In this document: piece after piece, positions 13,282 to 56,384 of the stretch | Layout: each line of letters opens with the position of its first letter | Position numbering within the stretch: the first letter of the stretch is position 1 | Origin: Bolinopsis microptera | Lineage: Eukaryota; Ctenophora; Tentaculata; Lobata; Bolinopsidae | NCBI RefSeq assembly: GCF_026151205.1 | Contig: NC_087073.1 | Coordinates: 10,578,636-10,642,635, forward strand | Direction: 5' to 3' | DNA: 64,000 bases | Notes under the pieces: model-generated | Told to the model about the DNA's origin: nothing | The model's database searches: none | What the model saw: only the letters and a program-made list of their open reading frames with translations | Program-made: the position numbers and the translations under genes

Positions 13282-16200
13282 ATGCACCTGTACCTGAGCG
13301 TCTTGCTTCATCTGGCGGTCGCTGTCTTCTCTCTCGCTTGTCTTTCTAGGTATATCATTACTAACTATCATAAGCATGATAAGTGCTACGGACAATTCAA
13401 CAGGTTTCTTTCGGGAGAAATAAAGGAATCAATTTGATGAGGAAAAAATGATTAAGACAAAATATATTTCCTCACCAAACTCCCCCTCTTCAGGCTGGTG
13501 GGAGTGTTGTTAAGCTGGTTCCTGAGCGCAGTCACAAAACACCGTATACAGATAGGACACGTGACCTTGTTATCAGTTCACGACATCAAGGTAGAGACCC
13601 GGGACAATGGCATTAAACTCAGAGTCAGTCATGTCTCCATTGTCTCCAAGCTCTTCTCTAATTCCATGTAGGTATTTCCGAGGATTATGATTGTTTTTAT
13701 ATTGTTAACTGCCCTTAAGCCCTTTTTATAGTTTTAATGGGCTGCCCCAAATATCTTCTTAAAATTATTAAATAACACTTAACATTACCAAGTTATAGTT
13801 TTATTTGTCTCGGTCCTAAATCCCTCGAATTAATAAATTCTCCTTTAACTCTTTAACCCTTTAACCCCTGTTATAAATGACATAGATTTGGATAATACAC
13901 ATTTTACAAAGTCACTTCATTAAATCATATTCTAGAAATCCCCCCGTACCCCTGGGACTGGTAACCACTTAGTTACCACCTAGTTACCACCTAGTTACCA
14001 CCTAGTTACCACCTAGTTACCACCTAGTTACCACCTAGTTACCACCTAGTTACCACCTAGTTACCACCTAGTTACCACCTAGTTACCACCTAGTTACCAC
14101 CTAGTTACCACCTAGTTACCACCTAGTTACCACCTAGTTACCACCTAGTTACCACCTAGTTACCGCCTAGTAACCACCTAGTTACCACCTAGTTACCACC
14201 TAGTAACCACCTAGTTACCACCTAGTAACCACCTACTTACCACTTAGTTACCACCTAGTAACCACCTAGTTACCACCTAGTTACCACCTAGTTACCACCT
14301 AGTTACCACATAGTTACCACCTAGTAACCACCTAGTTACCACCTAGTTACCACCTAGTTACCACTTAGTTACCACCTAGTAACCACCTAGTTACCACCTA
14401 GTTACCACCTAGTTACCACCTCGTACCCTCAGGAGGTGGGTGGGACTGTTTGTAGGCCAGGTTGATGTAAAACTACCTGAATTAGGAGCACTTCTCGCAC
14501 GGAGAAAGAAACAGACCTTATCAGTTACAACTGCTTCCTCCGACAAGAAACCTTTCAGAATGCCTCCTTTTATCGTTTACCTAATTCAGGTAATGTTAGA
14601 AATGTAACCACGGTAACGTAACCATGGTTATGTTAGAAATTTAAACATGCATGACTTTATCTTGTTCCAAATATAGAAATGTGTATTTTTTAAGCAAGGA
14701 CTGGTTTGGATTTCTAATCAGTATAAATTAACAAGATGTATGTATAGTAGAAGTTTTCGGGTTTGTTATTAAACTATCGAAGATAACATAAATATTGTCG
14801 TGTTAACACAAGATTTGCCGTTCATTACAATGTTATGTGTCAAAATACAAGGAATTTCAAGGTTTTATCTCAAGTATCTTCTTAAACTGACATAATATTT
14901 CAGAGAGTACACTTTAGTGTGGAGAGTATCACATTACAGGCAAAAGATAGATCACTCAGTGTGGCCGTATCGCTTTCAACTGGGGTTAATCTGGTTTCTT
15001 TTCCTGATAAGGACAACAAGTAATGTGCTTGTTTATTAATTTTATTATTGATGGTCATGGTAGTCATATGTTTTAAATTACATTTAACATATCAGTAAAA
15101 CATCTGGAAGACATTTTTAATAAATACTTTAAAGTTTCCAATTCTGGACTCGTAACCATGAGTGGAAATGATCAAATTTTTGCGGGAGTGCTCACGTTAT
15201 ATCCTTCCCTTTCAGATTCGTATCATCACATTTAGCTATGGACCATATAGAGATAATACTGAAAGAAGACAAAACGACTTACTTAAACACTTCGTTTGGA
15301 GTTAAACTGGACCTTTTATTTTCGTATTACTTTGAATCGGTGGGTTTACCTTATGTAGTAGAAATACTGTAACACTTTCTGTTGTACTTACTGAGTCTTC
15401 TTACACACTTTGCCGTGATAATGGTTAACAAGTGATCATTACCCGTACTAGGGAGTCTTGTAAAAACACTTGGTGAGATGCTATACATTTGTTCACGCTC
15501 AAATAGAAAACAATTAGGAACAAAAAGTAAAGCAACAATATTTCAGATAGAGACTATAAAAGTATCAGTGGATATGCTATCTGTAATGGCTTATGAGGGG
15601 ATACTAGATGTGATAAAACAGTTCAATCTCCGGAACAAATCGCCCTCCAATTCTATTGGTATTAAACTAATTACAACACTACAAATCTATTACATTTATT
15701 GAGAATTATGTAATGTAACGCGATGGAAGTATTTTAAGCGGGCATATCCTGTCCAAACCCAGGATACATGACATAAAGAATTTGGTTTAACTTGCTTGTA
15801 TGAAAAGCATTTTCCACCACTTTATAACGTGTCGTACCGTGCCCCGATATAATCCTTAAACCTTCATAACCGTTATTTTGTCCCTTTTTGTCCACCCTAC
15901 TTTTTGTCCGTTTTAAAAATAAAGGGTACCGAACGGACAAAAACGGACACAAAACATGAGCCCCCCCCTTTTATTAGGTGAACTTATCCCCAGTGTAGTG
16001 CTCTATTCTAAATGCCGGTCTAGGGTAAATAGAACTAATGTACCACTCAACCTTCAGAGACGGTAACAAAACAGAAGATCTCTATTTTCAAGAAGATATC
16101 CAGGATACTGCCCCTGGTTGCTAAAGACCGCAGTTTAAGGATACAGAACGTGTCGTGCAGTGTGTCAGATGTAGAGGAAACTAGGTCAGTGAGAATGTCC

Positions 16201-19200: not shown

Positions 19201-21894
19201 AGTGCTCCCTCTACAAGTCCCTCGGTTCCTATCAACAAGATCGTAGTCAATGTTACCAGAACTTCTCTCAACTTTATAACTTCCCCATCTAACCAGTAAG
19301 TGACAAAACAAGTCACTATAGTTACACGTTACCATAGTTACAAGTTACCATAGTAACAAGTTACCATAGTAACAAGTTACCATAGTAACAAGTTACAAGT
19401 TACCATAGTTACAAGTTACCATAGTTACAAGTTACCATAGTTACAAGTAACCATAGTTACAAGTTACCATAGTTACAAGTTACCATAGTTACAAGTTACC
19501 ACAGTTACAAGTTATCATAGTAACAAGTTACCATATTTACAAGTTACCATAGTAACAAGTTACCATAGTAACCACCTTCCTAGTGATGGAAGCCTTGGCG
19601 CTGTTCAATAATCACTTTGGTTTGCTGTTTTGCACTTTTTATAAAGGCACATTAAAATTAAGATCACTTGCAGGATATCGATAGAACTGACTCCGTTTGA
19701 ACTGAAGGTGGTGGACAGCGGAGTAAAGTTGAGGGTCAGTGACAATGTTACTGTTATTATGGACGGGCATCAGATCCTCTACATCACAGTAAGTAACACA
19801 AAACATTCCAAAACTGTATATTATTTTGTTACTATTTACTTACTTAGGAGACTTAGGAGATATTCGTAGATTCCTCTACTGGGTCATTGAATAGTTCGAC
19901 GGCCTTTGCAGCATCGCTGGTGCCTTATTCATACTCCAGTCCAGCAAAGAATTCCCATTCAAAATGAAAATATTTTATACGAATTAATCATGTGGCTCAT
20001 TGTTGTAGAGTAACATCCAGATAGTTGTAGATCACAAATCGGGACACGGTCTGTAAAAATCCTATCCGACCTTGTACACACTGAGGTGAACTACCCTGAA
20101 CCACCCTGAACCACCCCACACTTGAACCACCCTAATACACACAGAATGAAAACACTTTCGCCTCCTCAGGATGTTGGGTTAGAGCACGTGGTTCAGGAGA
20201 AAGAGCTGCTTGAAGTTAGAGAGTGCTACCCAGAGTTCGCTTCAACTAACCGAGCATGGTACGAAACTTTGTTAACTTAACTAATTGTATTATTACTTAT
20301 GTAAATTGCTAACAGAAATAGCCAACTGAACTGATACCAGCTTAGGCTACCTCTTTTATCTGATCGTATATATTTGATTCGAAATTATCGGAGATGGTGT
20401 CCTGATCACATGGGTAATACGTGGAGTTTAGGATAAATTGCCGATAAACAATGAATTTTCCACTGACCTCAAGTGGCCTCAGCTTATAAACCCCTCAAAC
20501 CACAGGTACTTCCACTGCCGGGAGTTCAAAGTGTTTCTGCCCCACAACTACGGCAGAAACCCCACAAATAGCAACCACCCAACTCTGGCTCTGGCTATTG
20601 ACGAGGCTCAGAACTGTTTTAAAATGTTGAAGGCTCTGCACAGGTGGGTGACTATTTGTTTAATTAATATTAACTCTGTGACGTCACGTGGCGTTGTGTG
20701 ACGTCACGTGTCGTTGTGTGACGTCACGTGGCGTTGTGTGACGTCACGTGGTGTTGAAGGCTCTGCACAGGTGGGGGACTATTTGTTTAAGTAATGTTAT
20801 TTATAGATTATTTATTTGCATGTTTTGTATCGCTCTGATACAGTGAATATTCATATTACTAACCCTATCATGTTTACCTATTTTTACTTTGTTGATACCT
20901 TACTCGGGATTATTATAACCGGGATAAAGTGGTGGGTTTTGGAAGATTCCGCCATATTTTTCCCGGTCAAAAATTTTACCAGTCATAAAAAAACCCGCCG
21001 ACTCAGATTATGGGGTTCCAAGGGGGTGGTGATCATCATATTTTCTTTGAAGTCTCATATGTGCTAGAGAAGACTTTTGAAGCAGTGGATGGAGGGCTGT
21101 AACTTAATTGGCGGTTGCTACCATAATTTCGTTATAAAAATCACAATTTGGTTATAGAAATCAGATTTCAGGGTGGACCGTGATTCTCACTTTTCTTGCC
21201 CATGAAGTGAGTAAACTGTGCCACTATTTCATGGTCCACGGTGGATTGATTACTGGAGCAGTTGAAGATGCAAAGCCAAGACGTTCCCCAATACCAAGCG
21301 GTGGGCAGGAAATTAAGCTCCGGCTGACCTTCAGAGCAGTAGCCCCATTAGCGGACAAAATGAAAGTCTTGTTAAGACAACAATACAACTTCGAATTTGA
21401 CGGTCAGTGCAGCAGGGGGATATCAATAATGATAATGGAGGGGACATCAGCGATAATGAGAATGAGAATACGCTTTAATGAAGATTTGACTTATTATTGC
21501 TATAGATTTATTTTCCTTTAAATACTAGACGTGTCTTTTTTTCTATTTCTGAGTAATATCAGTAACTGTAAATTGAAATAACTAACAGAAATTTCGGTTG
21601 AAAATTTGTTGACCTCTGAAAAAAAACTTGAAAGGTCGGCCACCGGTAAATACATGACCGGGATAATTTGGCGGGTTTTGGGAAATTCCGCCATATTTTT
21701 CCCGGTTATTAATTTTCCCAGTCATAAATTAACCCGCTATAATATTCCCGAGTAAGGTAAATAACAAGTAAGTTGGGTAATATGGGCCCACTTTCTACTA
21801 ACCCAGTTACTGATATCTCACCAGGGTACCAAGACTTGCTAGTGACGGTGAACCACTGTACGCTGACTGTAAAGTGGAGATCAAACAATTCCTG
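13282..21894 (+). CDS. BLTP2: Hobbit/KIAA0100 bridge-like lipid transfer protein, exons 1-19 (N-terminal part)
   Basis: Exons: 13282-13349, 13494-13667, 14433-14589, 14904-15019, 15216-15339, 15547-15658, 16058-16184, 16304-16457, 16752-16887, 16988-17141, 17263-17425, 17687-17870, 18003-18056, 18546-19040, 19169-19295, 19674-19788, 20170-20258, 20506-20643 and 21825-21894. All junctions are GT-AG and phase-consistent. The start MHLYLSVLLHLAVAVFSLAC is an N-terminal membrane anchor. It is followed by KHRIQIGHVTLLSVHDIKVE, matching the KIAA0100/hobbit opening (membrane helix then the first beta-groove repeats). Later segments keep the alternating beta pattern of RBG proteins, e.g. YFHCREFKVFLPHNYG and IDEAQNCFKMLKALHR. 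BLTP2 proteins form a long hydrophobic groove moving lipids at ER-plasma membrane contacts. The exon at 18546 may contain a 42-nt in-frame intron (18659-18700). The next exon is 22 kb away at 44112. Confidence 0.9.
13961..14420. repeat. 12-bp minisatellite GTTACCACCTAG, ~38 copies
   Basis: Near-perfect head-to-tail array filling most of hobbit intron 2 and ending 12 bp before the acceptor at 14432. Every unit carries a CCTAG that resembles a weak 3' splice site. Variants GTAACC and CACTTAG recur toward the distal end. Confidence 0.97.
19316..19574. repeat. 16-bp minisatellite GTTACCATAGTTACAA and variants
   Basis: Array beginning about 20 bp after the donor of the exon ending at 19295. The 16-mer also forms the first third of the 48-bp array at 23.9-25.1 kb and, with one change, the short array at 22.62 kb. 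Confidence 0.95.
20679..20750. promoter_or_regulatory. Four 20-bp repeats each with TGACGTCACGTG (CRE fused to E-box)
   Basis: TGACGTCACGTG occurs at 20679, 20699, 20719 and 20739. Each is a palindromic CRE (TGACGTCA) overlapping a CACGTG E-box. The array sits just inside a hobbit intron, between the real 5' splice site and its duplicated copy at 20754-20794. It could be a CREB/ATF-responsive intronic element or simply a repeat that happens to include these words. Confidence 0.5.
20754..20794 (+). repeat. Duplicated copy of an exon end plus its 5' splice site
   Basis: TTGAAGGCTCTGCACAG followed by GTGGG repeats 20627-20667, including the last 17 bp of hobbit exon 18 and its donor, with only three or four differences in 41 bp. 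It offers a second donor at 20771. Confidence 0.9.
20898..21757 (+). mobile_element. 860-bp TIR transposon-like element, copy 1, TA target duplication
   Basis: Ends CCTTACTCGGGATTATTATA and its inverted counterpart, flanked by TA at 20896-20897 and 21758-21759. Subterminal regions are also inverted (CCGCCATATTTTTCCCGGT). A central open frame of 113 codons (21180-21521, first codon GTG; first ATG 21231) is shared with copy 2. The frame is not a recognised transposase. TA duplication is typical of Tc1/mariner-type mobilisation. The element lies in a hobbit intron. Confidence 0.85.
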
Positions 21895-22668: not shown

Positions 22669-22669
22669 G

Positions 22670-25600
22670 TTACTTAACATTGGCCCACACGTGGATGCGT
22701 CTAGCACAGTAATCTATCAGTTCGCCCAGAGTAGCTACGTTAGCTCCAATAAACAGCCCCAGATTACCCCCCACATCTCCCAGTAAGTTCATGGTAGTGT
22801 AAGCAGGAACTTTCTGCACGTTCTCTATAGCCAGCGTCTCAAAGTACACGTGCAGCCTGATAAAGTTCTCTCTCAGGTCAGATACTGTATTGTAATCCTC
22901 GTTGAGTCCCAGTAGCTTGGTAGCCGCGTTAAGTGGGGGGTACTGCGCGCGCGACAACTTGTACTCGTAGTACGTGTCCGTACACGGGTCAATACACCAG
23001 CAGCCCTTAATCCTATCCTCGTAGAAACCCTGGTGGATTCGCTTTATCACCTTGACAGTGCAGTCGTGGTGTGTGAACAAGCTGCAGATGGTGATGTTCT
23101 CCAGAGGCATGTGACTCTGTTTACATTTGCATTCCTCGTCCAGGATCTGGGCGTGGCATTCCAGCTGACACGCTACCTGGGTGTTTGGATCGTAATAAAA
23201 CTAAACTGGTAGTTTTAATTAAATACATAATAATATTATATATGAATAATATTATATATATGAATAATGTGAATAATAAACTTTACCACGGAGTAAGTGG
23301 TGTTGTTCATGAGAGGACGGGAGGTACAGTTAAAATAGGGTTGTCCCAGGTTGTTTATACGGAGTGTCCGTGTGCTGATGTACGCTTCACTTCCTGGAGG
23401 GATTGCTAGACCGTATTCCTTGATCAGCGGGGGCTCCTTGTAGTGGTGCAACATCACTTTTATTCCTGTTAATGTTGTGATTTACGATTTGTTTTTAACA
23501 CTTTATTTAAACAAATTATTTAGGAAATCCCTTTAGCGATGCTTTGTTTCAACGAAGAATACAATTCATGGTTGCTCAGCATCACACAACCCAGGTTACC
23601 ATAGTTATTCAGCACTTACCCGCACTCTCCTGGGTATCAGCGTATTCTGACTGGTTGATGTTAATTATAAAAGTGGCCCCGAAATCATTTCCGGTCCTCT
23701 TGACAGTCTTGGTGCCATCAGCGTTGAAAGTGTAGCAGACCCCCAGCTCAGTCCGTCTCTCCGTGATATGCTCTCTGATATCCACCTCCCCATCTGTCAA
23801 TTCCTCCTCGTCAAATATAACTTGCTTGAACATGTCATATATACCGTGTTTACCCGACTTCTCCAAATCCAGAATTAGCAGCTGTTTGGCTGTTCTGTTG
23901 TCTGCCTCTGTTATAGGCCTGGTGGAGGGTTACCATAGTTACAAGACCTGGTGGGGGTTACAGTTACAATGAACAGGTTACCATAGTTACAAGACCTGGT
24001 GGGGGTTACAGTTACAATAAACAGGTTACCATAGTTACAAGACCTGGTGGGGGTTACAGTTACAATAAACAGGTTACCATAGTTAAAGACCTGGTGGGGG
24101 TTACAGTTACAATAAACAGGTAACCATAGTTACAAGACCTGGTGGGGGTTACAGTTACAATAAACAGGTTACCATAGTTACAGGACCTGGTGGGGGTTAC
24201 AGTTACAATAAACAGGTAACCATAGTTACAAGACCTGGTGGGGGTTACAGTTACAATAAACAGGTAACCATAGTTACAAGACCTGGTGGGGGTTACAGTT
24301 ACAATAAACAGGTAACCATAGTTACAAGACCTGGTGGGGGTTACAGTTACAATAAACAGGTTACCATAGTTACAAGACCTGGTGGGGGTTACAGTTACAA
24401 TAAACAGGTTACCATAGTTACAAGACCTGGTGGGGGTTACAGTTACAATAAATAGGTAACCATAGTTACAAGACCTGGTGGGGGGTAACAGTTACAATAA
24501 ACAGGTTACCATAGTTACAAGACCTGGTGGGGGGTTACAGTTACAATAAACAGGTAATCATCGTTACAAGACCTGGTGGGGGTTACAGTTACAATAAACA
24601 GGTAACCATAGTTACAAGACCTGGTGGGGGTTACAGTTACAATAAACAGGTTACCATAGTTACAAGACCTGGTGGAGGGTTACAGTTACAATAAACAGGT
24701 TACCATAGTTACAAGACCTGGTGGGGGTTACAGTTACAATAAACAGGTTACCATAGTTACAAGACCTGGTGGGGGTTACAGTTACAATAAACAGGTTACC
24801 ATAGTTACAAGACCTGGTGGGGGTTACAGTTACAATAAACAGGTTACCATAGTTACAAGACCTGGTGGGGGTTACAGTTACAATAAACAGGTTACCATAG
24901 TTACAGGACCTGGTGGGGGTTACAGTTACAATAAACAGGTAACCATAGTTACAAGACCTGGTGGGGGTTACAGTTACAATAAACAGGTTACCATAGTTAC
25001 AAGACCTGGTGGGGGTTACAGTTACAATAAACAGGTTACCATAGTTACAAGACCTGTTGGGGGTTACAGTTACAATAAACAGGTTACCATAGTTACAAGA
25101 CCTGGTGGGGTTTACAGTAACAATAAACAGGTTACCATAGTTACAAGACCTGGTGAGGGGGGGGGGGGGGGGGGGGAGGTGACAGTTTCTATTGGCGAGG
25201 CAGTTGGTGGTGTAAATGCGGTGATTTTAAAATTTTAAACTTTTTTAACCACATTTATATTCACAGCATAAAAAAGTAATATAAATACTAACAAGCCGAG
25301 TTCATCAAGAACGTCCGGCCCCCAGACCCTCGCAATCTCGTACTTCTTTACCACTAGATTCTCCGACTGGTTCAACCAACTCTTCCTGGAACAGTTAAAT
25401 TATTAGATCACCCATTCAACTCATCAGTCAATACTTGAATAATTGGCTCTCTGTGTAAAATTAAAATTCTGTTTTGAGGTACGAAATTGTGTTTTGATAC
25501 GATTCATGAATTGCAACCTATAATATTATCTTCATGTAACCTATATATAACTCCTCATACCTGTATTTGTTAAGATTGCAGATAGTGATGGCTGGCATGG

Positions 25601-32275: not shown

Positions 32276-32374
32276 TATGGAACCCTCGTCGTTACCATAC
32301 TTCGATTATAGTGTATCAGTTATCATTCGTAACTTTACCACATCATCTGATTACTCTATATCACATCACAACGT

Positions 32375-32627: not shown

Positions 32628-32895
32628 ACAGACCTAAATTTGATAAGAGCGGCGGTTATACGTTTAGAATTTCCAAAGTCCTTGAGAAAATGCAAAAGAA
32701 AACCGCACAATTCCCGCACAAATTCCGAAAAAATCGCCGCACATTTGCCGCATAATTGGTAAAAATTTACCGCACCTTACCGCACATTTTAATGATGTTG
32801 CATTCTGGAAATTATCTGATTTACTATATGCATCTGTTGAAACCTGATCATATAAAACTAAAATAATAGTCAAATTATGAGTGATACACGCAGTG

Positions 32896-33725
32896 ATCGA
32901 CCGGGATCCCGGCCCCGGCCCCGGATACGGCCGGGATTTGTGTTTTTTCCCCGGCCCCGGCAAAATAATTTTCAAAATCCCGGCCCCGGCCAGAGGCCCC
33001 CAATCCCGGCCCCGGCCCCGGCTGATTTTGTCAATTTTTGCCGGGATTTCTCGTATTTTCTGCCTCAATTTAAACCGATAGATTATCAGAATTTATCTTG
33101 ATTTTTAGACTAAAATTAAACACAAAATTTTCGGTAACATGAGATCGAGTGAAAAATATAAATACAAGGACTTGACATCATTCCAGTTTGATATTCAGAA
33201 AATTTCAACTTTGAATTTACAAATAATGTAAAATATTAATGTTGATTAAAAAAGTTCCAGGTTGATTAAAAAGTTCGAGTAAAGTCATGTGTTCGTGTAC
33301 CGTTTTCTTTCATATAACTAGTACAAACGTCAAACAATTCAGTTCAGGAGCAAAAAACAGTAGAGAGTGAGGCCGACTCAATGCAGATGATGATGATAGT
33401 CATCAGATCACAGATGATTACTCGTTTAAAGGAGTAGGAGGATATTTGGCAGTGAAATAACGCCAACTCATAGCAGTAATGTAAACAGCGTTTGGTGTAA
33501 TTATACTTAAACATTGTGTAGTGGCCTTATACGTTGACCTTGAAGCTAGCTCACATTGATACGAGTTTCCGGAAACTTTCAAAAATTTTCAAAATTAGAT
33601 TAAAAAAATCCCGGCCCCGGCATATTTTAGCCAATCCCGGCCCCGGCCCCGGCCTTGGCAACATTTCAAAATCCCGGTTAATCCCGGCCCCGGCTGATTC
33701 AACTTGGTCCCGGCCCCGGTCGATC
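32896..33725. repeat. Clusters of CCCGGCCCCGG palindromic words
   Basis: Dense GC islands at 32896-33030 and 33605-33725, in otherwise AT-rich DNA, share ATCCCGGCCCCGGCC and variants with a site near 29890. Proline/arginine frames through them are artefacts. They may be ends of a dispersed element. Confidence 0.6.
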
Positions 33726-33817
33726 CCTGGATACACGTCACTCCTGAATCATGATAATTATTACTGACTTCCAGTTCCCCTGAATGTATTTATTTAATTG
33801 ATCAGAACACTTTTCAG

Positions 33818-35188
33818 ATGTCATATTGTCACATAAAAAGCGAAGTGAAGACCGAAGAAGAGGATTTGATAAGCAAAACTGGAGGTTTCCTGTGTCCAGC
33901 ATGTGGTGAACAACTTTTGAACGAGAATAATTTCCTTGAACATATCAGGGAACGCCATTATAAACCTGATCTGCAAGTACAAGATGAGGAACATAGCTTG
34001 TTACGTGAATTTACTGGAGGTTCTGTTCATAACAATGGTCATGTTACAGAACAAGATGGTTGTTGTGTTCAAAATATATGTGACTTTAAATCAGAAGTAA
34101 AAACTGAGCAGAGTGAATTTAATGAAGAGGCTGGAGGCTTTCTCTGCTCAGTTTGTGGGGAACATTATGCGGAGGAGGCCAGTTTTATTGAGCATATCAA
34201 GGATCACGTTAATACTTCAGGCAAACGAAAAAGACCAAAATGTGATGAATTTCAAAGTGATCGGGATAATAGTAGCGAAGTAGCTAAACCGGACTATTCT
34301 ACCATCTATCAGAAGAATCCCAATTCTCAAGAAAGTGAAAACCTGTTGAAATGTCCTGATTGTTCGTATAGCACAGCTAGTCAATCAAACCTCAGAGTAC
34401 ATATGAAGACTCACTCAGGAGAGAAACCATATAAATGTCCAGATTGTTCGTATGCAACAGCTCAGAAATCACATCTCAAAGTACATATGGTGACTCACTC
34501 GGGTGAGAAACCATATAAATGTCCAGATTGTTCGTATGCAGCAGTTTGGAAATCACATCTCAAAGTACATATGGTGATTCACTCGGGAGAGAAACCATAT
34601 AAATGTCTAGATTGTTCGTATGCAGCAGCTTTAAAATCAAACCTCAGAGTACATAATATGAAGACTCACTCCGGAGAGAAACCATATAAATGTCCAGATT
34701 GTTCCTATGCAGCAGCTCAGAAATCAATCCTCAAAGTACATATGATCACTCACTCCGGAGAGAAACCATATAAATGTCCAGATTGTTCCTATGCAGCAGC
34801 TCTAAAATCAACCCTCAGAGGACATATGAAGACTCACTCCGGAGAAAAACCATATAAATGTCCAGAATGTTCGTATGCAGCAGCTCGGAAATCACATCTC
34901 AAAGTACATATGGTGACTCACTCCGGAGAGAAACCATATAAATGTCCAGATTGTTCGTATGCAGCAGTTTGGAAATCACATCTCAAAGTACATATGGTGA
35001 TTCACTCGGGAGAGAAACCATATAAATGTCCAGATTGTTCGTATGCAGCAGCTTTAAAATCAAACGTCAGAGTACATATGAAGACTCACTCCGGAGAGAA
35101 ACCATATAAATGTCCAGATTGTTCCTATGCAGCAGCTCAGAAATCAATCCTCAAAGTACATATGAAGACTCACTCGGGAGAGAAATAA
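33818..35188 (+). CDS. C2H2 zinc-finger protein, cluster member 2 (2 + 10 fingers)
   Basis: A 456-codon intact frame with the same N-terminus as member 1 (MSYCHIKSEVKTEEEDL) and ten tandem CPDCSY fingers. One finger has an H-x4-H spacing (RVHNMKTH). A block of fingers (W-S-H, L-S-N, Q-S-I helices) is repeated within the gene, showing internal duplication. It ends SGEK then TAA, which replaces the Pro codon of the GEKP linker; a decayed finger follows. The start lies directly after TTTTCAG. Probable nuclear DNA-binding protein. Confidence 0.9.
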   Translation: MSYCHIKSEVKTEEEDLISKTGGFLCPACGEQLLNENNFLEHIRERHYKPDLQVQDEEHSLLREFTGGSVHNNGHVTEQDGCCVQNICDFKSEVKTEQSEFNEEAGGFLCSVCGEHYAEEASFIEHIKDHVNTSGKRKRPKCDEFQSDRDNSSEVAKPDYSTIYQKNPNSQESENLLKCPDCSYSTASQSNLRVHMKTHSGEKPYKCPDCSYATAQKSHLKVHMVTHSGEKPYKCPDCSYAAVWKSHLKVHMVIHSGEKPYKCLDCSYAAALKSNLRVHNMKTHSGEKPYKCPDCSYAAAQKSILKVHMITHSGEKPYKCPDCSYAAALKSTLRGHMKTHSGEKPYKCPECSYAAARKSHLKVHMVTHSGEKPYKCPDCSYAAVWKSHLKVHMVIHSGEKPYKCPDCSYAAALKSNVRVHMKTHSGEKPYKCPDCSYAAAQKSILKVHMKTHSGEK

Positions 35189-35651
35189 TTCAACTGTTCA
35201 GATTGTTCTTTAAAGCAGCCCAGAATTCAAATCTACTAAAACCGCAGAAAATGCATGCTTACCAGACACGAGATAACTCATACCGGCCAAAAACTATTCA
35301 AATTTTTGGAATGATCATTATATTATGAAATTGCACCAAAAGTGTATTTTTGAACATTAGAAGACTTGTACCGGCGAAAAACCGTACAACAACTGTTCCG
35401 TGTGTTCATTCTGCTTTCCTTGCTGGAGTAATCTAGTCAGAGAACACATATTCCGGCGAGAAAACTCTGCCCTGATGCTGTAACAACACTAACTAACTAG
35501 ACATATGGGAACTCAATAATAATCAGCAGACTGAGAAGTTGTACTTCTGTTTTAAGTTCTTTGCGATATATTTGTGTTAATCGTATTATACCTTATCTTG
35601 AATGTAAAATCCGGATTGGAGTATCGTTGATGATTGGAGTATCGTTGATGA

Positions 35652-35712
35652 CAGAATACATTACAACAATGCAACTTATCAATGATGAGTTGCATTGTTG
35701 TAATGTATTCTG
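35652..35712. repeat. Perfect 24-bp inverted repeat, 13-nt loop
   Basis: Arms 35652-35675 (CAGAATACATTACAACAATG...) and 35689-35712 are exact reverse complements. The right arm runs into the P-element start. Confidence 0.9.
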
Positions 35713-35895
35713 TGTAAAATTATCTTTATCCCGGTTACTGCGACAAGTAACAAATGCTCTTATTAGGGAAAGGAGTTTACTCGACGTTTAAATGTAACTA
35801 CATCGTATTCATGATCTAAAAACAAGTGTTAAAAATTCAAAACGTTAAACAAAAAATTTTTAAATAAGTTTATGTACACAAATTTTGCCTCAGAT
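35704..35895. mobile_element. P element (palindromic MITE), half copy
   Basis: Left arm and loop of the near-palindrome seen intact at 40924-41264 (TATTCTGTGTAAAATTATCT ... GGAGTTTACTCGACG ... CAAATTTTGCCTCAGATATA). The right arm is missing. Confidence 0.75.
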
Positions 35896-36277
35896 ATATG
35901 TTTACACTTATCTTGAATGATTAATAATGAATATCAAAATCGACCAGCTTCTATTAGGGATCTTATATAAACTTATATTAAATATTGTCATGTCTTTATT
36001 TGGTTTATAACTCTCAGTTGTGGGGCATATACTCGGTCTGTTTTTTGTTGAAGATGAAGTTCAATTTAGCAATACTGATGAATTTTGCTTTCTGGAAATT
36101 ATCTTATTTACTATATGAAATATGCATCTGTTGAAACTTGATCTTATAAAACATTGTATAAATCTGAAATAATAATAAAATTATGAGTGATATACGGCAC
36201 TCCTGAATCATGATAATTATTACTGACTTCCAGTTCCCCCTGAATGTATTTATTTAATTAACCAGAACACTTTTCAG

Positions 36278-36318
36278 ATGTCATGTTGTCGCATAAAAAG
36301 CGAAGTGAAGACCGAAGA
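36278..36318 (+). pseudogene. Truncated stub of a sixth zinc-finger gene
   Basis: The conserved upstream flank and TTTTCAG precede an ATG and about 13 codons (MSCC, IKSEVKTE-like with H to R), then the sequence jumps to GCTTCTATTAGGGATC of the spacer. This looks like a copy lost by recombination between tandem units. Confidence 0.8.
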
Positions 36319-36631
36319 GCTTCTATTAGGGATCTTATATAAACTTATATTAAATATTGTCATGTCTTTATTTGGTTTATAACCTTCAGTTGTGGGGCAT
36401 ATACCCGTTCTGTTTTTTGTTGAAGATTAAATTCAATTAAGCAATATTGATAAAATTTTGCATTCTGGAAATTATCTAATTTACTATATGCATCTGTTGA
36501 AACCTGATCATATAAAACTAAAATAATAGTCAAATTTTGAGTGATACACGGCACTCTTGAATCATGATAATTATTACTGAGTTCCAGTTCCCCCTGAATG
36601 TATTTATTTAATTAACCAGAACACTTTTCAG

Positions 36632-37821
36632 ATGTCATGTTGTCACATAAAAAGCGAAGTGAAGACCGAAGAAGAGGATTTGAGAAGCAAAACTGAAGGT
36701 TTTCTGTGTCCAGCATGTGGTGAACAACTTTTAAACGAGAAGTATTTCATTGAACATATCAGGGAACGCCATTATAAACCTGATCTGCAAGTACAAGATG
36801 AGGAACACAGTTTGTTACGTGAATTTACTGGAGGTTCTGTTCATAACAATGGTCATGTTACAGAACAAGATGGTTGTTGTGTTCAAAATAAATGTGACTT
36901 TAAATCAGAAGTAAAAACTGAGCAAAGTGAATTCAATGGAGAGGCTGCAGGCTTTCTCTGCTCAGTTTGTGGGAACATTATGCTGAGGAGGCCATTTTTA
37001 TTGAGCATATCAAGGATCACGTTAATACTTCTGGCAAACGAAAAATACCAAGATGTGATGAATTTCAAAGTGATCGGGATAATAGTAACGAAGTAGCTGA
37101 ACCGGACTATTCTACCACCTATCAGAAGAATCCCAATTCTCAAGAAATTGAAAAACTGTTGAATTGTCCTGATTGTTCGTATAGTACAGCTCGTAAATCA
37201 AACTTCAAAAGGCATATAGTTATTCACTCCGGAGAGAAACCATATAAATGTCCAGATTGTTCCTTTGCAGCAGCTTTGAAATCACATCTCAAAGTACATA
37301 TGGTGACTCATTCGGGTGAGAAACCATATAAATGTCCAGATTGTTCGTATGCAGCAGTTCGGAAATCATATCTCAAAATACATATGATCACTCACTCCGG
37401 AGAGAAACCATATAAATGTCCAGATTGTTCCTATGCAGCAGCTCTGAAATCAACCCTCAGAGCACATATGAAGACTCACTCCGGAGAGAAACCATATAAA
37501 TGTCCAGAATGTTCGTATACAACAGCTCGTAAATCAGACCTCAGAGTACATATGATGACTCACTCCGGAGAGAAACCATTTAAATGTCCAGATTGTTCGT
37601 ATGCAGCAGCTCAGAAATCAACCCTCATAGTACATATGAGGACTCACTCGGGAGAAAAACCATATAAATGTCCGGATTGTTCGTATGCAGCAGCTCTGAA
37701 ATCAAACCTCAAAGTACACATGAGTACTCACTCGGGAGAGAAACCATATAAATGTCCAGATTGTTCGTATGCAGCAGTTTCGAAATCAAACCTCAAAGTA
37801 CATATGAAAAGTCACTCCTAA
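36632..37821 (+). pseudogene. C2H2 zinc-finger member 3, broken by a 1-bp deletion
   Basis: The first frame (36632-37096) has the usual N-terminus. The second finger then changes frame because GTTTGTGGGGAACAT of the other members is GTTTGTGGGAACAT here (about 36966-36974). The remaining spacer and eight fingers are open in the other frame (to 37821). Both halves are otherwise well preserved, so the lesion is recent, a sequencing error, or the downstream half is used from another start. Its last finger ends MKSHS at TAA, one finger earlier than the fossil. Confidence 0.8.
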
Positions 37822-39395
37822 GAGAAATAATTCCACTGATCAGATTGTTCTTTTAAAGCAGCCCAGATTTCAAATGTACTATAACCCCAGAAGATGCATG
37901 CTAGCCAAACGCAAGAGAACTCATACTGACCAAAAACTATACAATTTTTCGGAATGATCATAATATTATAATAATGTACTAAAAGTGCATTTATTTGTAC
38001 ATCAGAAGACTTGTACCGGTGGAAAACCGTACAACTGTTCCGTGTGTTCATTCGGCGAGAAAACTCTTCCCTGATGCTGTAACAACACCAACTAACTTGA
38101 CATATTATGGGAACTCAATAATAATTAGCAGACTGAGAAGTTGTACTTCTGTTTTCAGTTCTTTGCGATATATTTGTCTTAATCGTATTATACCTTATCT
38201 TGAATGTAAAATCTGTATTGGAGTATTGTTTATGAGTCGCATTGTTGTAATGTATTCTGTGTAAAATTATCTCTATCCCGGTTACTGCGACAAGTAAAAA
38301 ATGTTCTTATTAGGGAAAGGAGTTTACTCGACGATTCAATGTAACTTCATCGTATTCATGATCTAAAAACAAGTGTTAACAAGAATTTCGCCGCGGTTAA
38401 ACCACGCACGATCAATTTTCCCTACCATGTACTTGTACCATTAATTCTTTTGCGTGAAACGTGTGACTGGAAAAAAGTGCACCATATTTACATACTATGT
38501 TGTTTATAAATGAGTGGGATTCGTGCATGGTAAAAATTGACGATTTATTTGACCAATGCAGCGCCGCGCATCAACAATAAATGTATCCAGAAAATTGCGG
38601 AAAATAACTTTGCGAAGGAGGAATTTCGCTGTAATTAATTAACACATGGCTAGCGTCGCGTGCAGCATAACAGACTCTTCCTATACACATAATTATAGGG
38701 GAATGGTCTATATTTCAAAGGAGCAGACTTTTGTCATCATCGCAGGTCCATCGGGCCACCTCATATATCCAAACCCGATTACTTATTCCCTACGATCATT
38801 TTGCCTTCGGCAAGAGTAGGGAAAAAAATTCAAAACGTATAGAAATATATCTGAGGCAAAATTTGTGTACATTAATTTATTTTCAAAAAAATTTTTTTTA
38901 CGTTTTGAATTTTTAAAATTTGTTTTTAGATCATGAATACGATGTAGTTACATTGAAACGTCGAGTAAACTCCTTTCCCTAATAAGAGCATTGTTACTTT
39001 TCGTAGTAACCGGGATACAGATAATTTTACACAGAATACACTTATCTTGAATGATTAATAATGAATGATAAAATCGACCAGCTTCTATTAGGGATCTTAT
39101 ATAAACTTATATTAAATATTGTCATGTCTTTATTTGGTTTATAACCTTCAGTTGTGGGGCATATACCCGTTCTGTTTTTTGTTGAAGATTAAATTCAATT
39201 AAGCAATATTGATAAAATTTTGCATTCTGAAAATTGTCTAATTTACTATATATGCATCTGTTGAAACCTAATCATATAAAACTAAAATAATAATAAAATA
39301 ATGAGTGATATACGGCACTCCTGAATCATTATAATTATTACTGACTTCCAGTTCCCCCTGAATGTATTTATTTAATTAACCAGAACACTTTTCAG
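37822..39395. other. Spacer between members 3 and 4
   Basis: Contains the fossil-finger tail and a P element (38253-39038) with a 446-bp unrelated insertion. No gene is supported; the frame 38731-38916 is not credible. Confidence 0.5.
38253..39038. mobile_element. P element interrupted by a ~446-bp insertion
   Basis: Left arm 38253-38378 and right portion from about 38825 match the intact copy at 40924-41264. Between them lies unrelated DNA (38379-38824) beginning CAAGAATTTCGCCGCGG, a nested insertion that is itself unidentified. Confidence 0.7.
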
Positions 39396-40355
39396 ATGTC
39401 ATGTTGTCACATAAAAAGCGAAGTGAAGACCGAAGAAGAGGATTTGATAAGCAAAACTGGAGGTTTTCTGTGTCCAGCATGTGGTGAACAACTTTTAAAC
39501 GAGAAGTATTTCCTTGAACATATCAGGGAACGCCATTATAAACCTGATCTGCAAGTACAAGATGAGGAACATAGCTTGTTACGTGAATTTACTGAAGGTT
39601 CTGTTCATAACAATGGTCATGTTCCAGAACAAGATGGTTGTTGTGTTCGAAATAAATGTGACTTTAAATCAGAAGTAAAAACTGAGCAGAGTGAATTTAA
39701 TGAAGAGGCTGGAGGCTTTCTCTGCTCAGTTTGTGGGGAACATTATGCGGAGGAGGCCAGTTTTATTGAGCATATCAAGGATCACGTTAATACTTCAGGC
39801 AAACGAAAAAGACCAAGATGTGATGAATTTCAAAGTGATCGGGATAATAGTAGCGAAGTAGCTAATCTGGACTATTCTACCATATATCAGAAGAATCCCA
39901 ATTCTCAAGAAAGTGAAAACCTGTTGAAATGTCCTGATTGTTCGTATACAACAGCTCGTAAATCAAACCTCAGAGTACATATGAAGACTCACTCCGGAGA
40001 GAAACCATATAAATGTCCAGATTGTTCGTATGCAGCAGCTCTGAAATCACATCTCAAAGTACATATGGTGACTCACTCGGGTGAGAAACCATATAAATGT
40101 CCCAATTGTTCATATGCAGCAGTTTGGAAATCACATCTCGAAGTACATAATATGGTGATTCACTCGGGAGAGAGACCATATAAATGTCCAGATTATTCGT
40201 ATGAAGCAGCTCGGAAATCAGATCTCAAAGTACATTTGAAGATTCGCTCCGGAGAGAAACCATTTATATGTCCAGATTGTTCGTATGCAGCAGCTCGGAA
40301 ATCGACTCTTAGACTTCATATGAAGACTCACTCCGGAGAAAAACTATATAAATGA
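39396..40355 (+). pseudogene. C2H2 zinc-finger member 4, nonsense-truncated with a decayed finger
   Basis: The 319-codon frame has the standard N-terminus and five fingers. The fourth is dead (CPDYSY, Cys to Tyr; final His to Arg in KIRSG). The frame ends where the next finger's TGT-CCA reads TGATCA, giving a stop, although finger-coding sequence continues after it to about 40453. The product may still be made, but the gene looks to be decaying. Confidence 0.78.
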
Positions 40356-41638
40356 TCAGATTGTTCGTATGCAGCAGTTCGGAGATCAGAGCTCAAAGTA
40401 CATGTGATGACTCACTCCGGTGAGAAAGTACATATGAAGACTCACTCGGGATAGAAATAATTCAACTGTTCAGATTGTTCTTTTAAAGCAGCCCAGAATT
40501 CAAATCTACTAAAACCGCAGAAAATGCATGCTTGCCAGACACGAGAGAACTCATACCGGCCAAAAACTATTCAAATTTTTGGAATGATCATTATATTATG
40601 AAATTGCACCAAAAGTGTATTTTTTGAACATTAGAAGACTTGTACCGGCAAAAAACTGTACAACTACTGTTCCGTGTGTTCATTATGCTCTCCTTGCTGG
40701 AGTTATCTAGTCAGAGAAACATATTCCGGCGAGAAAACTCTGCCCTGATGCTGTAACAACACTAACTAACTAGACATATGGGAACTCAATAATAATTAGC
40801 AGACTGAGAAGTTGTACTTCTGTTTTAAATTCTTTGCGATATGTTTGTCTTAATCGTACTATACCTTATCTTGAATGTAAAATCTGGATTGGAGTATTGC
40901 TCATGAGTTGCATTGTTGTAATGTATTCTGTGTAAAATTATCTTTATCCCGGTTACTGTGACAAGTAAAAAATGCTCTTATTAGGGAAAGGAGTTTACTC
41001 GACGTTTCAATGTAACTACATCGTATTCATGATTTAAAAACAAGTGTTATAAATTCAAAACGTAAAAAACATATATCTGAGGCAAAATTTGTGTACATAA
41101 ATTTATTTTTTAAAAAATGTTTTTTACGTTTTGAATTTTTAACACTTGTTTTTAGATCATGAATACGATGTAGTTACATTTAAAAGTCGAGTAAACTCCT
41201 TTACCTAATAAGAGCATTTTTACTTGTAGCAGTAACCGGGATAAAGATAATTTTACACAGAATACACTTATCTTGAATGATTAATAATGAATGATAAAAT
41301 CGACCAGCTTCTATTAGGGATCTTATATAAACTTATATTAAATATTGTCATGTCTTTATTTGGTTTATAACCTTCAGTTGTGGGGCATATACTCGGTCTG
41401 TTTTTTGTTGAAGATGAAGTTCAATTTAGCAATACTGATAAAATTTCGCTTTCTGGAAATTATCTTATTCACTATATGAAATATGCATCTGTTGACACTT
41501 GATCTTATAAAACATTGTATAAATCTGAAATAATAATAAAATAATGAGTGATATACGGCACTCTTGAATCATTATAATTATTACTGACTTCCAGTTCCCC
41601 CTGAATGTATTTATTTAATTAACCAAAACTCTTTTCAG
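40356..41638. other. Spacer between members 4 and 5
   Basis: Remnant finger codons (40356-40453), the fossil terminal finger, then an intact P element (40924-41264) and the conserved upstream flank of member 5. No gene is supported. Confidence 0.5.
40924..41264. mobile_element. P element, intact 341-bp near-palindrome
   Basis: Arms of about 150 bp mirror each other. The left starts TATTCTGTGTAAAATTATCT and the right ends AGATAATTTTACACAGAATA. A short loop contains ATATCTGAGGCAAAATTTGT. A copy or part-copy sits in three successive zinc-finger spacers, so it is part of the duplicated unit. Confidence 0.85.
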
Positions 41639-43612
41639 ATGTCATATTGCAATTGTCACATAAAAAGCGAAGTGAAGACCGAAGAAGAGGATTTAATAAG
41701 CAAAACTGGAGGTTTCCTGTGTCCAGCATGTGGTGAACAACTTTTGAACGAGAATAATTTCCTTGAACATATCAGGGAACGCCATTATAAACCTGATCTG
41801 CAAGTACAAGATGAGGAACATAGCTTGTTACGTGAATTTACTGGAGGTTCTGTTCCTAACAATGGTCATGTTACAGAAGAAGATGGTTGTTGTGTTCGAA
41901 ATAAATGTGACTTTAAATCAGAAGTAAAAACTGAGCAGAGTGAATTTAATGAAGAGGCTGGAGGCTTTCTCTGCTCAGTTTGTGGGGAACATTATGCGGA
42001 TGAGGCTAGTTTTATTGAGCATATCAAGGATCACGTAAATACGTCTTGCAAACAAAAAAGACCAAGATGCAATGTAATTGAAAGTTTTAGTGGTTATAGT
42101 AGCGAAGTAGCTAAACCGGACTATTCTACCATCTATCAGAAGAATCCCAATTCTCAAGAAAGTGAAAACCTGTTGAAATGTCCCGATTGTTCGTATACAA
42201 CAGCTCGTAAATCAAAATTCAAAAGGCATATAGATATTCACTCCGGTGAGAAACCATATAAATGTTCAGATTGTTCGTATGCAGCAGCTCGGAATTCAGA
42301 TCTTAAAGTACATATAATGAAGATTCACTCGGGAGAGAAACAATTTATATGTTCAGATTGTTCGTATGCAACAGCTCGGAAATCAAACCTCAGAGTACAT
42401 ATGAAGACTCACTTCGGAGAGAAACCATATAAATGTCCAGATTGTTTGTATGCAGTAGTTTTGAAATCAGAGCTCAAAGTACATATGATGACTCACTCCG
42501 GTGAGAAACCATTTATATGTCCAGAATGTTCGTATGCAGCAGCTCGGAAATCAAACCTCAAATTTCATATAATGAGGACTCACTCCGGTGAGAAACCATT
42601 CAAATGTTCAGATTGTTCGTATGCAGCAGTTCGGAGATCAGATCTCAAAGTACATATGATGACTCACTCCGGACAGAAACCGAATAAATGTTCAGATTGT
42701 TCGTATGCAGCAGTTCGGAGATCAGATCTGAAAGTACATATGGTGACTCACTCCAGAGAGAAACCATATAAATGTCCAGAGTGTTCGTATGCAACAGCTC
42801 TGAAATCAAACCTCAGAGTACATCTGAAGACTCACTCCGGTGAGAAACCATTTAAATGTCCAGATTGTTCGTATGCAGCAGTTCGGAGATCAGATCTGAA
42901 AGTACATATGATGACTCACTCCGGACAGAAACCGAATAAATGTTCAGATTGTTCGTATGCAGTAGTTTGGAAATCAGAGCTCAAAGTACATATGATGACT
43001 CACTCCGGTGAGAAACCATTTATATGTCCAGAATGTTCGTATGCAGCAGCTCGGAAATCAAACCTCAAATTTCATATAATGAGGACTCACTCCGGTGAGA
43101 AACCATTCAAATGTTCAGATTGTTCGTATGCAGCAGTTCGGAGATCAGATCTCAAAGTACATATGATGACTCACTCCGGACAGAAACCGAATAAATGTTC
43201 AGATTGTTCGTATGCAGTAGTTTGGAAATCAGAGCTCAAAGTACATATGATGACTCACTCCGGTGAGAAACCATTTATATGTCCAGAATGTTCGTATGCA
43301 GCAGCTCGGAAATCAAACCTCAAATTTCATATAATGAGGACTCACTCCGGTGAGAAACCATTTAAATGTCCAGATTGTTCGTATGCAGCAGTTCGGAAAT
43401 CAGATCTCAAAGTACATATGATGACTCACTCCGGAGAGAAACCATTTAAATGTCCAGATTGTTCGTATGCAGCAGCTCTGAAATCAACTCTTCGGAATCA
43501 TCTGAAGACTCACTCTGGTGAGAAACCATTTAAATGTCCATATTGTTCGTATGCAGCAGCTCGGAAATCAAGTCTACTAAAACACCAGAAAATTCATGCT
43601 AGAGGAATCTAA
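41639..43612 (+). CDS. C2H2 zinc-finger protein, cluster member 5 (2 + 17 fingers), largest and intact
   Basis: A 657-codon frame. The N-terminus (MSYCNCHIKSEVKTEEEDL) is that of the cluster, with one small insertion; two N-terminal fingers follow, then 17 tandem fingers. A three-finger block (RKSNLKFHIMRTH, RRSDLKVHMMTH, WKSELKVHMMTH) occurs in near-identical copies, about 255 bp each, and the H-x4-H finger travels with it. The final finger (CPYCSYAAARKSSLLKHQKI) is intact here, unlike in its siblings, making this the most complete member. Likely a sequence-specific DNA-binding nuclear protein. Confidence 0.92.
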   Translation: MSYCNCHIKSEVKTEEEDLISKTGGFLCPACGEQLLNENNFLEHIRERHYKPDLQVQDEEHSLLREFTGGSVPNNGHVTEEDGCCVRNKCDFKSEVKTEQSEFNEEAGGFLCSVCGEHYADEASFIEHIKDHVNTSCKQKRPRCNVIESFSGYSSEVAKPDYSTIYQKNPNSQESENLLKCPDCSYTTARKSKFKRHIDIHSGEKPYKCSDCSYAAARNSDLKVHIMKIHSGEKQFICSDCSYATARKSNLRVHMKTHFGEKPYKCPDCLYAVVLKSELKVHMMTHSGEKPFICPECSYAAARKSNLKFHIMRTHSGEKPFKCSDCSYAAVRRSDLKVHMMTHSGQKPNKCSDCSYAAVRRSDLKVHMVTHSREKPYKCPECSYATALKSNLRVHLKTHSGEKPFKCPDCSYAAVRRSDLKVHMMTHSGQKPNKCSDCSYAVVWKSELKVHMMTHSGEKPFICPECSYAAARKSNLKFHIMRTHSGEKPFKCSDCSYAAVRRSDLKVHMMTHSGQKPNKCSDCSYAVVWKSELKVHMMTHSGEKPFICPECSYAAARKSNLKFHIMRTHSGEKPFKCPDCSYAAVRKSDLKVHMMTHSGEKPFKCPDCSYAAALKSTLRNHLKTHSGEKPFKCPYCSYAAARKSSLLKHQKIHARGI

Positions 43613-44111
43613 CCCTACTATACAGTATACACGAGAGAACTATACAAGTTTTCGCAGTAGAACTATACAAGTTTTCGCAGTAATCGTGACATATCTGCCA
43701 GCGTTTATTAGGGATCTTATATTAACTAATGTTTATATATGTCAACATATCTGTATCCTGGTGTTTTGCTGAAGATTAAGTTCAAATTAGCAATACGGAT
43801 AACATTTTCATTCTATAAATTCAATGACAAGTAGTTTCATTTCTTAATCAACTTTCACCTCTTCAAGCTGTATAACTTACCCGAAAAACTTAAATGTTGC
43901 GTTGATGTAATCTGTAACATATTACTAACTACAATATGTACAGTTTGATTGTATACACATGCACATAACCATGGATAACATATTACCAAAATTAGGATAA
44001 TAAGCTCTGTTAATTTGCAGGTGGAGTTATATACCTGAGTAGTAACTATGGTAACTAAGTGGTAACTAGGTGGTAACTTAGTAACTAGGTGGTAACTAAG
44101 TTAATTTGCAG
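43613..44111. other. Right flank of the zinc-finger cluster and end of the 22-kb hobbit intron
   Basis: No gene. The last 100 bp contain a duplicated acceptor (44011-44027 and 44100-44111) separated by a GGTGGTAACTAA array. Confidence 0.6.
44036..44101. repeat. GGTAACTA(A/G)(G)T array, inverted kin of the 12-bp minisatellite
   Basis: About five units of (T)GGTAACTAGG between two copies of TTAATTTGCAGGTGGAGTT. The reverse complement contains GTTACCACCTAG, the unit of the array at 13961-14420. Confidence 0.85.
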
Positions 44112-45381
44112 GTGGAGTTTGAGGACTACGAGTTCGACCAGAAGATCTCACAGAACTACCTGATAATGCAGGCTGCTTGCAGGGAGATAGAGAGTAGTAT
44201 GGGAAACTTTGAGAGACAGGGATCTGATACTCCTGAGCCGGAGAACCAGCAACTTAACTGTAAGTTAGTTTGGGGGGGGGATCTGAGGGGGGGGGGGCAA
44301 CTTTGAGAGACAGGGATTGGGGGAGGGGATCTGCGTTGTAACTTAAATGTACCGGAGGGGGTTCTTGACACCTATATACATATGATACGATAGTTTGAAG
44401 TAACAGAAGCTTTGAAAAACATGTGTTAATCGTATTCAAACCAAATGTAAATCAGAAATATAGCTAAAATCACACATGTGTCCATCAACTAGCCTCTAAC
44501 TAATGTATAATTTAACTTTACAGTATCTGAACTTGCTGACAACTCCTTCACAACTAGTTCAAGTTTCTGGGAGACTTACTACGACTTCCAGCGGTTTTAC
44601 AAGGTACCTATAGCAGTTAAACCTTTTAGTGTACCTCAAACTTGGCTACCTTTAGTAATGCCCTTGGTTGTTCTTAGTTACCCTTAGTAACCCTTAGTAA
44701 TACCTTTAGTTACCTTAATTACTTAGTTACCCTTAGTTACCCTTAGTAATGCCCTTAGTTATACCTTTAGTTACCCTTAATTACTTAGTTACCCTTAGTT
44801 ACCCTTAGCAATACCTTTAGTTACCCTTAATTACTTAGTTACCCTTACCGTAACTCTCCCAGGAGCAGGCAGAGAAGACTCCAGAAGAAGCAGTGAAGCT
44901 AGCAACCCTCTTAGTAACAGAAGTGCGTATGTGTGTCTGTGCTGATGAGAGTCTGAACGGGCATGACAACGTAGTGGACATGATTAACAGGCTGGATGAC
45001 GGGACTGAGGTTCCACCTGATCTCAGGTCAGTCAGAAAATGGGCACTAAGTATTGAGCATCGATCTTTAACTAATTAACTAAATGTATAATTACAGGGTT
45101 TAATTAACAAGTTAACTGATATTGAACTAATTAACTAATTGTATAATTACCGGGTTTAATTAACTAGTGAATCGATCTTTAACTAATTAACTAATTGTAA
45201 AATTACTGGGTTTAATTAACAAGTTAACTGGTATTGAACTAATTAACTAATTGTATAATTACCGGGTTCAGGTTCACCACCCTCTGGGGACGAGCTGTGT
45301 CCGGTACCTGGACCACCTTTTCCCTACAACTCCGCAACTTCAGCACTGAACTGATACGAATCAACAACGGAGCTATCAGGG
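44112..45381 (+). CDS. BLTP2: Hobbit/KIAA0100 exons 20-23
   Basis: Exons 44112-44259, 44524-44603, 44863-45026 and 45272-45381 continue the 19-exon segment ending at 21894 in phase 0. They encode VEFEDYEFDQKISQNYLIMQ (KIAA0100: FEVKLHDNYELM), a helical linker, FWETYYDFQRFYK, EEAVKLATLLVTEVRMCVCA and FTTLWGRAVSGTWTTFSLQL. They correspond to the middle of the protein, before the GFWDK-like region. The three introns here are short, and two are built of tandem repeats that run into the acceptor. The next exon lies 16.5 kb downstream (61844). Similarity is from memory of the human protein. Confidence 0.9.
44640..44850. repeat. TTACCCTTAG(T/TAA) array
   Basis: Irregular tandem array occupying hobbit intron 21 and running to about 12 bp from the acceptor at 44862. 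Each unit ends in a pyrimidine stretch plus TAG. Confidence 0.9.
45068..45271. repeat. 56-bp repeat, 3.6 copies; last copy forms the splice acceptor
   Basis: Units start at about 45069, 45125, 45181 and 45237 with AACTAATTAACTAA. The fourth is cut short at ACCGGGTTCAG, the acceptor of hobbit exon 23. The equivalent point in copy 1 reads ATTACAGGGTTT, also acceptor-like. Confidence 0.93.
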
Positions 45382-55165: not shown

Positions 55166-55239
55166 AACCCACTCACATCCACAATATTTCACAACCTCTC
55201 AACCCACTCACATCCACAACCTTCCGAATGTAGGTACGG

Positions 55240-56380: not shown

Positions 56381-56384
56381 CATA

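Follow-up and report, generated by a model that had tools for sequence, protein, structure and literature searches.

The window analysed here, by which we mean the whole 64-kb stretch of contig NC_087073.1 from 10578636 to 10642635 (C2:10578636-10642635) of the ctenophore Bolinopsis microptera, holds six tandem repeat arrays that end immediately ahead of predicted 3' splice sites. Five of the array-adjoining exons appear to belong to one BLTP2/Hobbit-like gene, predicted on the plus strand from ~13.4 kb to beyond 62.6 kb, and the sixth to a minus-strand ASC (DEG/ENaC) channel gene that lies between exons of the former. Coordinates without a locus label are positions in the window, L-numbers denote loci sampled elsewhere in the genome searched (264.65 Mb, 232 contigs), and all splice sites, exons and introns are predictions from the DNA of one assembly. 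Arrays were detected with Tandem Repeats Finder (TRF). The gene finder employed was small, trained on 250 kb of grid-sampled genome together with the window; its first run was dropped as too noisy and replaced by a second, and a third run, in which splice sites were permitted within arrays, is the basis of the 63-intron set discussed below. A comparison of the window with Rfam returned no matches at gathering scores. Minisatellites of short unit, many with a common GTTAC/GTAAC core, abound in the genome, as reflected by a TRF coverage of 13.4% in 250 kb outside the window and by 23,115 GTTACC triplets at 7-21 bp spacing genome-wide, versus 179 for the reversed pattern.

Four of the six array-adjoining exons are backed by homology, with Hobbit/BLTP2 at 44863, 45272 and 62165 and with the ASC channel at 23918. 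Specifically, positions 1069-1156 of the Pfam Hobbit profile match at 44.9-45.4 kb and positions 1161-1294 at 61.8-62.6 kb. In peptides with joins picked so that the frame continues, the exons 44112, 44524, 44863 and 45272 yield a Pfam Hobbit match of 1.9e-6 that spans the 45272 junction and begins at the first residue of exon 44863, leaving the acceptor junction at 44863 unspanned, and the exons 61844, 62165/6 and 62396 match Hobbit 1161-1294 at 1.6e-30 across both junctions. For exons 14433 and 44112 the support consists of an open frame and splice signals; a 516-aa joined peptide including exon 14433 gave no Pfam match, and the part of the gene before 21 kb appears to belong to the Hobbit-like gene judging from position and open frame.

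The first of the six arrays, 41.6 copies of the 11-bp unit ACCACCTAGTT at 13964..14421 (plus strand), stops 11 bp 5' of the acceptor of the predicted Hobbit-like exon 14433..14591 (end approximate; 14589 according to the gene finder), for which no significant Pfam match of its own was found. On the minus strand, a 48-bp array of 25.6 copies (23928..25160) fills most of intron 25292-23919 and ends 9 bp before the ASC exon at 23609..23918 (Pfam ASC 2.5e-9 for 23612-23917). The remaining four are on the plus strand: an array of AGTAGTAACTAGTGGTAACTA at 44038..44101, 10 bp from exon 44112; a CTTAGTTACC-type array at 44647..44847, which takes up most of intron 44606-44862 and stops 15 bp before the acceptor of exon 44863; a 56/112-bp array at 45059..45268, making up most of intron 45027-45271 and ending 3 bp before an acceptor whose junction falls within the Hobbit match; and, 9 bp before exon 62165 and with the junction within Hobbit 1161-1294, a weak, pyrimidine-rich CTCCTTACACTCA repeat (62097..62155; 59 bp, TRF score 72) that is in effect an extended pyrimidine tract. 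Thus, TRF confirms all six arrays that the first-pass annotation, made from the letters alone, had described as stopping some 0-12 bp short of acceptors, the measured spacing being 3-15 bp. The acceptor-like words it had noticed within the units are likewise present, as exemplified by CCACCAGGT, found 24 times in the ~25.6 copies of the ASC array and similar to the gene's own acceptor, CCACCAG|GC.

Is such closeness expected by chance? Under random placement, 1.08 arrays would be expected within 15 bp of an acceptor in the window, compared to the six observed (P 7e-6), and of eight hand-entered arrays none falls within 15 bp of a donor, in a post hoc test on cases chosen for this very feature, in which the eight arrays occupy hand-entered introns, 14 more were treated approximately and two were placed in the inferred long intron 20644-44111. 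With this proviso, the earlier statement that the co-location exceeds random placement holds for the window. As a counter-example, a 16-bp ACAAGTTACCATAGTT array (19308..19569, plus strand) is located mid-intron, with the acceptor 104 bp away.

The flanks of some arrays carry copies of the splice boundary itself. At the donor 20643, the exon end AAGGCTCTGCACAG|GTGGG (20630..20648, plus strand) belongs to an aligned 43-bp direct repeat whose other copy lies on the far side of an 80-bp array of 20-bp units (20677..20756), with the second boundary copy at 20757..20775 as judged by sequence comparison. At 44112, flank comparison identified a 19-bp duplicate of the acceptor with the beginning of its exon, TTAATTTGCAG|GTGGAGTT, at 44010..44028, on the far side of the AGTAGTAACTAGTGGTAACTA array from the downstream copy at 44101..44119, the presumed acceptor of this exon (an alternative AG at 44099-44100 is favoured by the gene finder). 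In the ASC gene, 15 of 20 positions agree between the array unit CCACCAG|GTCTTGTAAC and the acceptor CCACCAG|GCCTATAAC (null 0.007). An automated scan for boundary copies in 77 introns rose above its null only in the window, at 20643, at the 44112 site and at 36619, the last of which reflects duplicated zinc-finger genes.

Boundary copies are also present elsewhere, at a donor in L009, a laminin-like gene by translation where arrays fill introns up to both ends, and in L004, L005 and L008 (C4:6.29-6.31 Mb). In L004, a donor-side piece and an acceptor piece of the predicted sites are each present twice, and in L005 the acceptor piece is present twice and the donor-side piece 11 times, in both loci with GTTACC blocks between. 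In L008, AG|GTAAACATGT occurs in five copies, again separated by GTTACC blocks, and joining the first to the last leaves a single copy, in frame. Finally, L006 (C2:977 kb) contains a predicted 480-bp intron, mostly array, that carries the 12-bp AGGTTAGCTAAA at either end and whose predicted junction is crossed by an open frame; this AG|GT repeat at both intron ends is the signature of a putative intron gain. As a separate observation, the array at 2758-3235 of L008 and the second array of L006 start at a predicted donor, for example with G|GTTAGTAATACTTAG followed by (TTAGTAACAC)n and with CCAG|GTTAGTAACCAGGTAACC, as though the 5' splice site had given rise to them.

Flanking repeats were also assessed in a family set of 34 arrays similar to ACCACCTAGTT (unit at least 75% identical; flanks sought for 37 family arrays, ten of which were not obtained). 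Direct repeats of 12-56 bp exceeding all 200 shuffles flank nine of the 34, and in seven of the nine both repeat copies lie no more than 7 bp from the array; among isolated arrays remote from predicted exons, two of 34 have such repeats (Fisher 0.045).

Aggregated, we tentatively favor, with a probability of roughly 0.48, a reading in which the abundant arrays grow inside introns until they reach the splicing signals, some of them arising together with a short duplication that spans a splice boundary. Minisatellites in genes would accordingly sit in introns and grow, presumably neutrally, until they meet sequence required by splicing, and in short introns would thus come to within a few bases of one splice site or of both. 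A subset, which may be termed mirages, would originate from a short tandem duplication (~12-56 bp) across the boundary, often including AG|GT, generated by staggered-break repair or slippage, and leaving one boundary copy on each side with the minisatellite in between. Since one intact boundary stays beside the exon, the coding sequence would be preserved and the array intronic, assuming that the RNA is spliced as predicted. A duplicated exonic piece holding AG|GT could even add a new intron. The process would not be specific to acceptors, as boundary copies are also found at donors (20643, L009, L004 and L005).

A number of findings weigh against this reading. When junctions were compared with their own arrays, no copy was recovered at 14433, 44863, 45272 or 62165, so that growth by duplication of the polypyrimidine/AG region, as put forward in the first-pass annotation, fits two of the six window cases (44112 and 23918) and not the other four. 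The array at 13964-14421, as an example, has neither a junction copy inside nor a flanking direct repeat above the maximum of the shuffles. The automated scan detected nothing above the null in 53 introns outside the window, where the L009 donor copy was missed because the donor is misplaced. As for the flanking direct repeats, five of the nine belong to one 17-kb locus, and collapsing by locus gives 5/26 versus 2/34 (p 0.22); including far arrays that have a neighbouring array yields 5/53 with repeats (p 0.07 versus 9/34), and among isolated arrays of the sampled loci, repeats are present in 2/9 close to predicted exons versus 2/34 far from them (p 0.19), with array ends of the family and control sets defined by different rules. 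Furthermore, an 8-bp array in L010 (9192-9373), a locus in which no exon was predicted, has an exact 33-bp direct repeat on its flanks. Flanking duplication is thus not special to splice sites, and may belong to array birth in general. In the same junction comparison, no copy was found in any of the five cases from L009 and L033, and local duplication of each pyrimidine tract hence fails as a general origin in nine of the 11 acceptor cases tested.

The strongest of the alternatives, which we nonetheless deem unlikely, is that arrays have no link to splice sites at all, that short and nearly filled introns force them close to the ends, and that the striking cases were picked. Indeed, introns 44606-44862 and 45027-45271 consist of array to 78-86%, conferring a probability of 0.28-0.44 of ending within 15 bp, and the intergenic-looking L010 array displays flanking repeats as well. 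The 63-intron set, like the motif counts given below, is congruent with such a view, both sides being used equally: arrays are found within 30 bp of the acceptor in seven introns, of the donor in eight and of both in three. Array coverage in this set is ~11-13% at 15-60 nt from either intron end (at 25-40 nt 13% by the 3' and 12% by the 5' splice site) and 9% mid-intron; the 5' side exceeds the 3' side over the first 15 nt (8-10% versus 3-6%), and the 3' side exceeds the 5' side at 60-120 nt (16-18% versus 11-12%). That arrays are tolerated only at acceptors, as had been considered initially, is not supported by these figures. Outside the window, the 40 arrays in predicted introns place three ends within 20 bp of a 3' site and four within 20 bp of a 5' site (1.55 expected each), which does not confirm the pattern of the window as a general one. 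The latter excess (p 0.03), all of it in the L009 gene, speaks against mere passivity, as does the random-placement result in the window, and the boundary copies at 44112, 20643, 23918 and elsewhere require an event that spans the boundary.

Whether acceptors as such are enriched depends on the set. In 77 introns with 58 arrays, the window included, seven array ends are found within 20 bp of the acceptor versus 2.9 expected (p 0.008), and four within 20 bp of the donor, also versus 2.9 expected; the 63 introns and genome-wide motif counts show no 3' excess, the latter suggesting the outcome that the first-pass annotation had named as refuting its view, a lack of acceptor excess genome-wide. 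For the motif counts, 316 matches were obtained for a GTTACC doublet with the acceptor-like word YYNCAGG after it and 1008 for one with the reverse complement of that word, both numbers being inflated, the second more so, by arrays that contain the word. Clustering by place, in the 66.4 Mb common to the first 100 matches listed for each pattern, left 34 versus 30 loci (p 0.71). Since exon ends of the form CAG|GT at donors match YYNCAGG as well, the count sets acceptor side against donor side rather than against chance, and it suggests, at low power and with a control that is not neutral, that the acceptor side is not clearly favoured. A 3' rule for the arrays finds no clear support in these counts, with one family leaning to acceptors (see below).

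Considerably less probable than passive closeness is dispersal, where pieces of array insert at staggered breaks, generate flanking target duplications and, when landing on AG|GT, become introns, as a minisatellite introner. It draws its appeal from the 11-bp family, whose unit recurs in the 34 examined arrays beside exons of unrelated genes, namely Hobbit-like, dynein heavy chain (L042) and zinc finger (L065), the latter two Pfam-supported, and AMP-binding (L035; 0.00013, under the curated cut-off). Most arrays are hence probably not grown from their own polypyrimidine tract. When the 68 flanks were compared by BLAST, 19 ends matched the flank of another array, which we read as duplicated loci, overlaps inside one locus and shared short repeats, and the other flanks are mostly non-homologous; the notion that arrays are part of a larger shared element was set aside on these grounds. 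The length and proximity of the direct repeats, the exact L010 repeat and the L006 intron are all in line with insertion. On the other hand, strong flanking repeats are missing in 25 of the 34 family arrays, the duplication lengths vary, unlike those left by a transposase, similar units could arise by convergence, and local tandem growth of the ordinary kind is evident from the boundary copies inside the arrays of L005 and L008. We find it improbable that the GTTACC-family minisatellite is an introner whose inserts duplicate 12-56 bp and turn AG|GT pieces into new spliceosomal introns, which would make intron birth frequent and recent in this lineage. In L005 (C4:6.30 Mb), a Glutaredoxin-like exon (Pfam 0.0016, below cut-off) was moreover noted in a 17-kb cluster rich in arrays of the 11-bp family.

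The 68 family ends were also scored for the side on which an exon adjoins. With a 10% threshold set from random positions, an exon adjoins by its acceptor side at 22 ends and by its donor side at 11, each with ~6.3 expected (asymmetry p 0.08), and with a 5% threshold the numbers are nine and four, with ~3.3 expected each (p 0.27). Of 32 oriented calls, 24 have the C-rich strand as sense (p 0.007), as do 10 of 13 at the 5% threshold (p 0.09). These p-values are optimistic because of duplicates in the set, which includes three duplicated-locus pairs and nine arrays in one locus. At -42 to -10 of 63 array-free acceptors, neither GTAAC (1 versus 3.2) nor GTTAC (4 versus 5.3) is enriched, and branch-point donation by units of this kind was rejected on this ground. 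Despite the window counts, the 77-intron excess and the end and strand biases of the family, a 3'-specific process or selection that puts arrays at acceptors, for instance through units supplying the branch point or pyrimidine tract, is very improbable, considering the symmetry of the 63 introns and of the motif loci, this lack of core enrichment, and that the strand bias could equally reflect avoidance of decoy donors.

The Hobbit-like gene hosts further features between its exons. In addition to the ASC gene, zinc-finger and GalNAc-transferase-like genes, named from their translations, are located there. The ASC gene is flanked by a near-perfect inverted repeat (20896-21764 and 26158-27044; 688 nt at 100% and 181 nt at 99%), which looks like a recent duplication or a mobile element pair. 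At 30270-43612, a row of zinc-finger open reading frames with 84-bp coding repeats apparently represents tandem gene copies nested between Hobbit exons. Two GalNAc-transferase-like copies follow at 48912-50773 and 52502-54316, the first of which may be a pseudogene or an assembly error, as its frame is split in several and the second forms one 604-aa frame. Ahead of exon 61844, large blocks of a 184-bp repeat are present at 54694-61213, in both orientations judging by the units.

New introns are seldom observed while they arise. With arrays and boundary copies in abundance, a genome would offer the means to tally recent intron births and remodelled boundaries, to date them from the divergence of the boundary copies and to compare them between haplotypes, and would also test how splicing chooses the right AG among dozens of decoys.

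Among open-licence papers, we recognised none on arrays at ctenophore splice sites in the matches listed. The Hormiphora ctenophore genome has, in the available part of its description, 13% tandem repeats by TRF and nested intronic genes (PMC8527503), resembling the tandem-repeat share of ~13% and the nested genes observed here, in an account that as far as available does not include arrays at splice sites. Closer parallels are found in the mirage minisatellites of amphioxus, in Adh3 and the globins BflGb6 and BflGb9, where, according to the accessible portion of the report, tandem repeats extend across intron-exon boundaries at 5' and 3' ends, many units contain AG/GT, and the authors proposed a route to new introns (PMC3087553). 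As in those genes, a unit or flanking copy spans the predicted boundary at 44112, 23918, 20643, L004, L005, L008 and L009, and both donors (20643, L009, L004, L005) and acceptors (44112, 23918, L004, L005) are involved. Unlike the amphioxus cases as described there, the boundary copies here enclose arrays of short units (8-48 bp), a single unit is met next to exons unrelated to one another, and nine of 11 tested boundary-adjacent arrays have no boundary copy; accordingly, 14433, 44863, 45272 and 62165, where none was found, are not classified as mirages.

For intron gain, the model of Rogers, in the part of the source available, invokes tandem duplication of an exon segment with AGGT, illustrated by a potato RdRp case (PMC4974935). 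Similarly, AG|GT copies lie at both ends and splicing would restore the coding sequence of L006 and L008 as predicted, the AGGT of the duplicated segment supplying both the predicted donor and acceptor (AG|GTTAGCTAAA at both ends in L006, AG|GTAAACATG in L008). In contrast to that model, a minisatellite lies between the copies, and the new introns are candidates. Fission yeast genes in the same source hold multiple tandem copies with AGGT, with an intron spanning several tandem exon copies (PMC4974935), reminiscent of the predicted L008 intron that spans several tandem copies; no minisatellite between the yeast copies is mentioned in the available text. Three things seem new in this ctenophore: a single unit that repeatedly adjoins unrelated exons, how abundant the arrays are, and candidate new introns that are mostly array.

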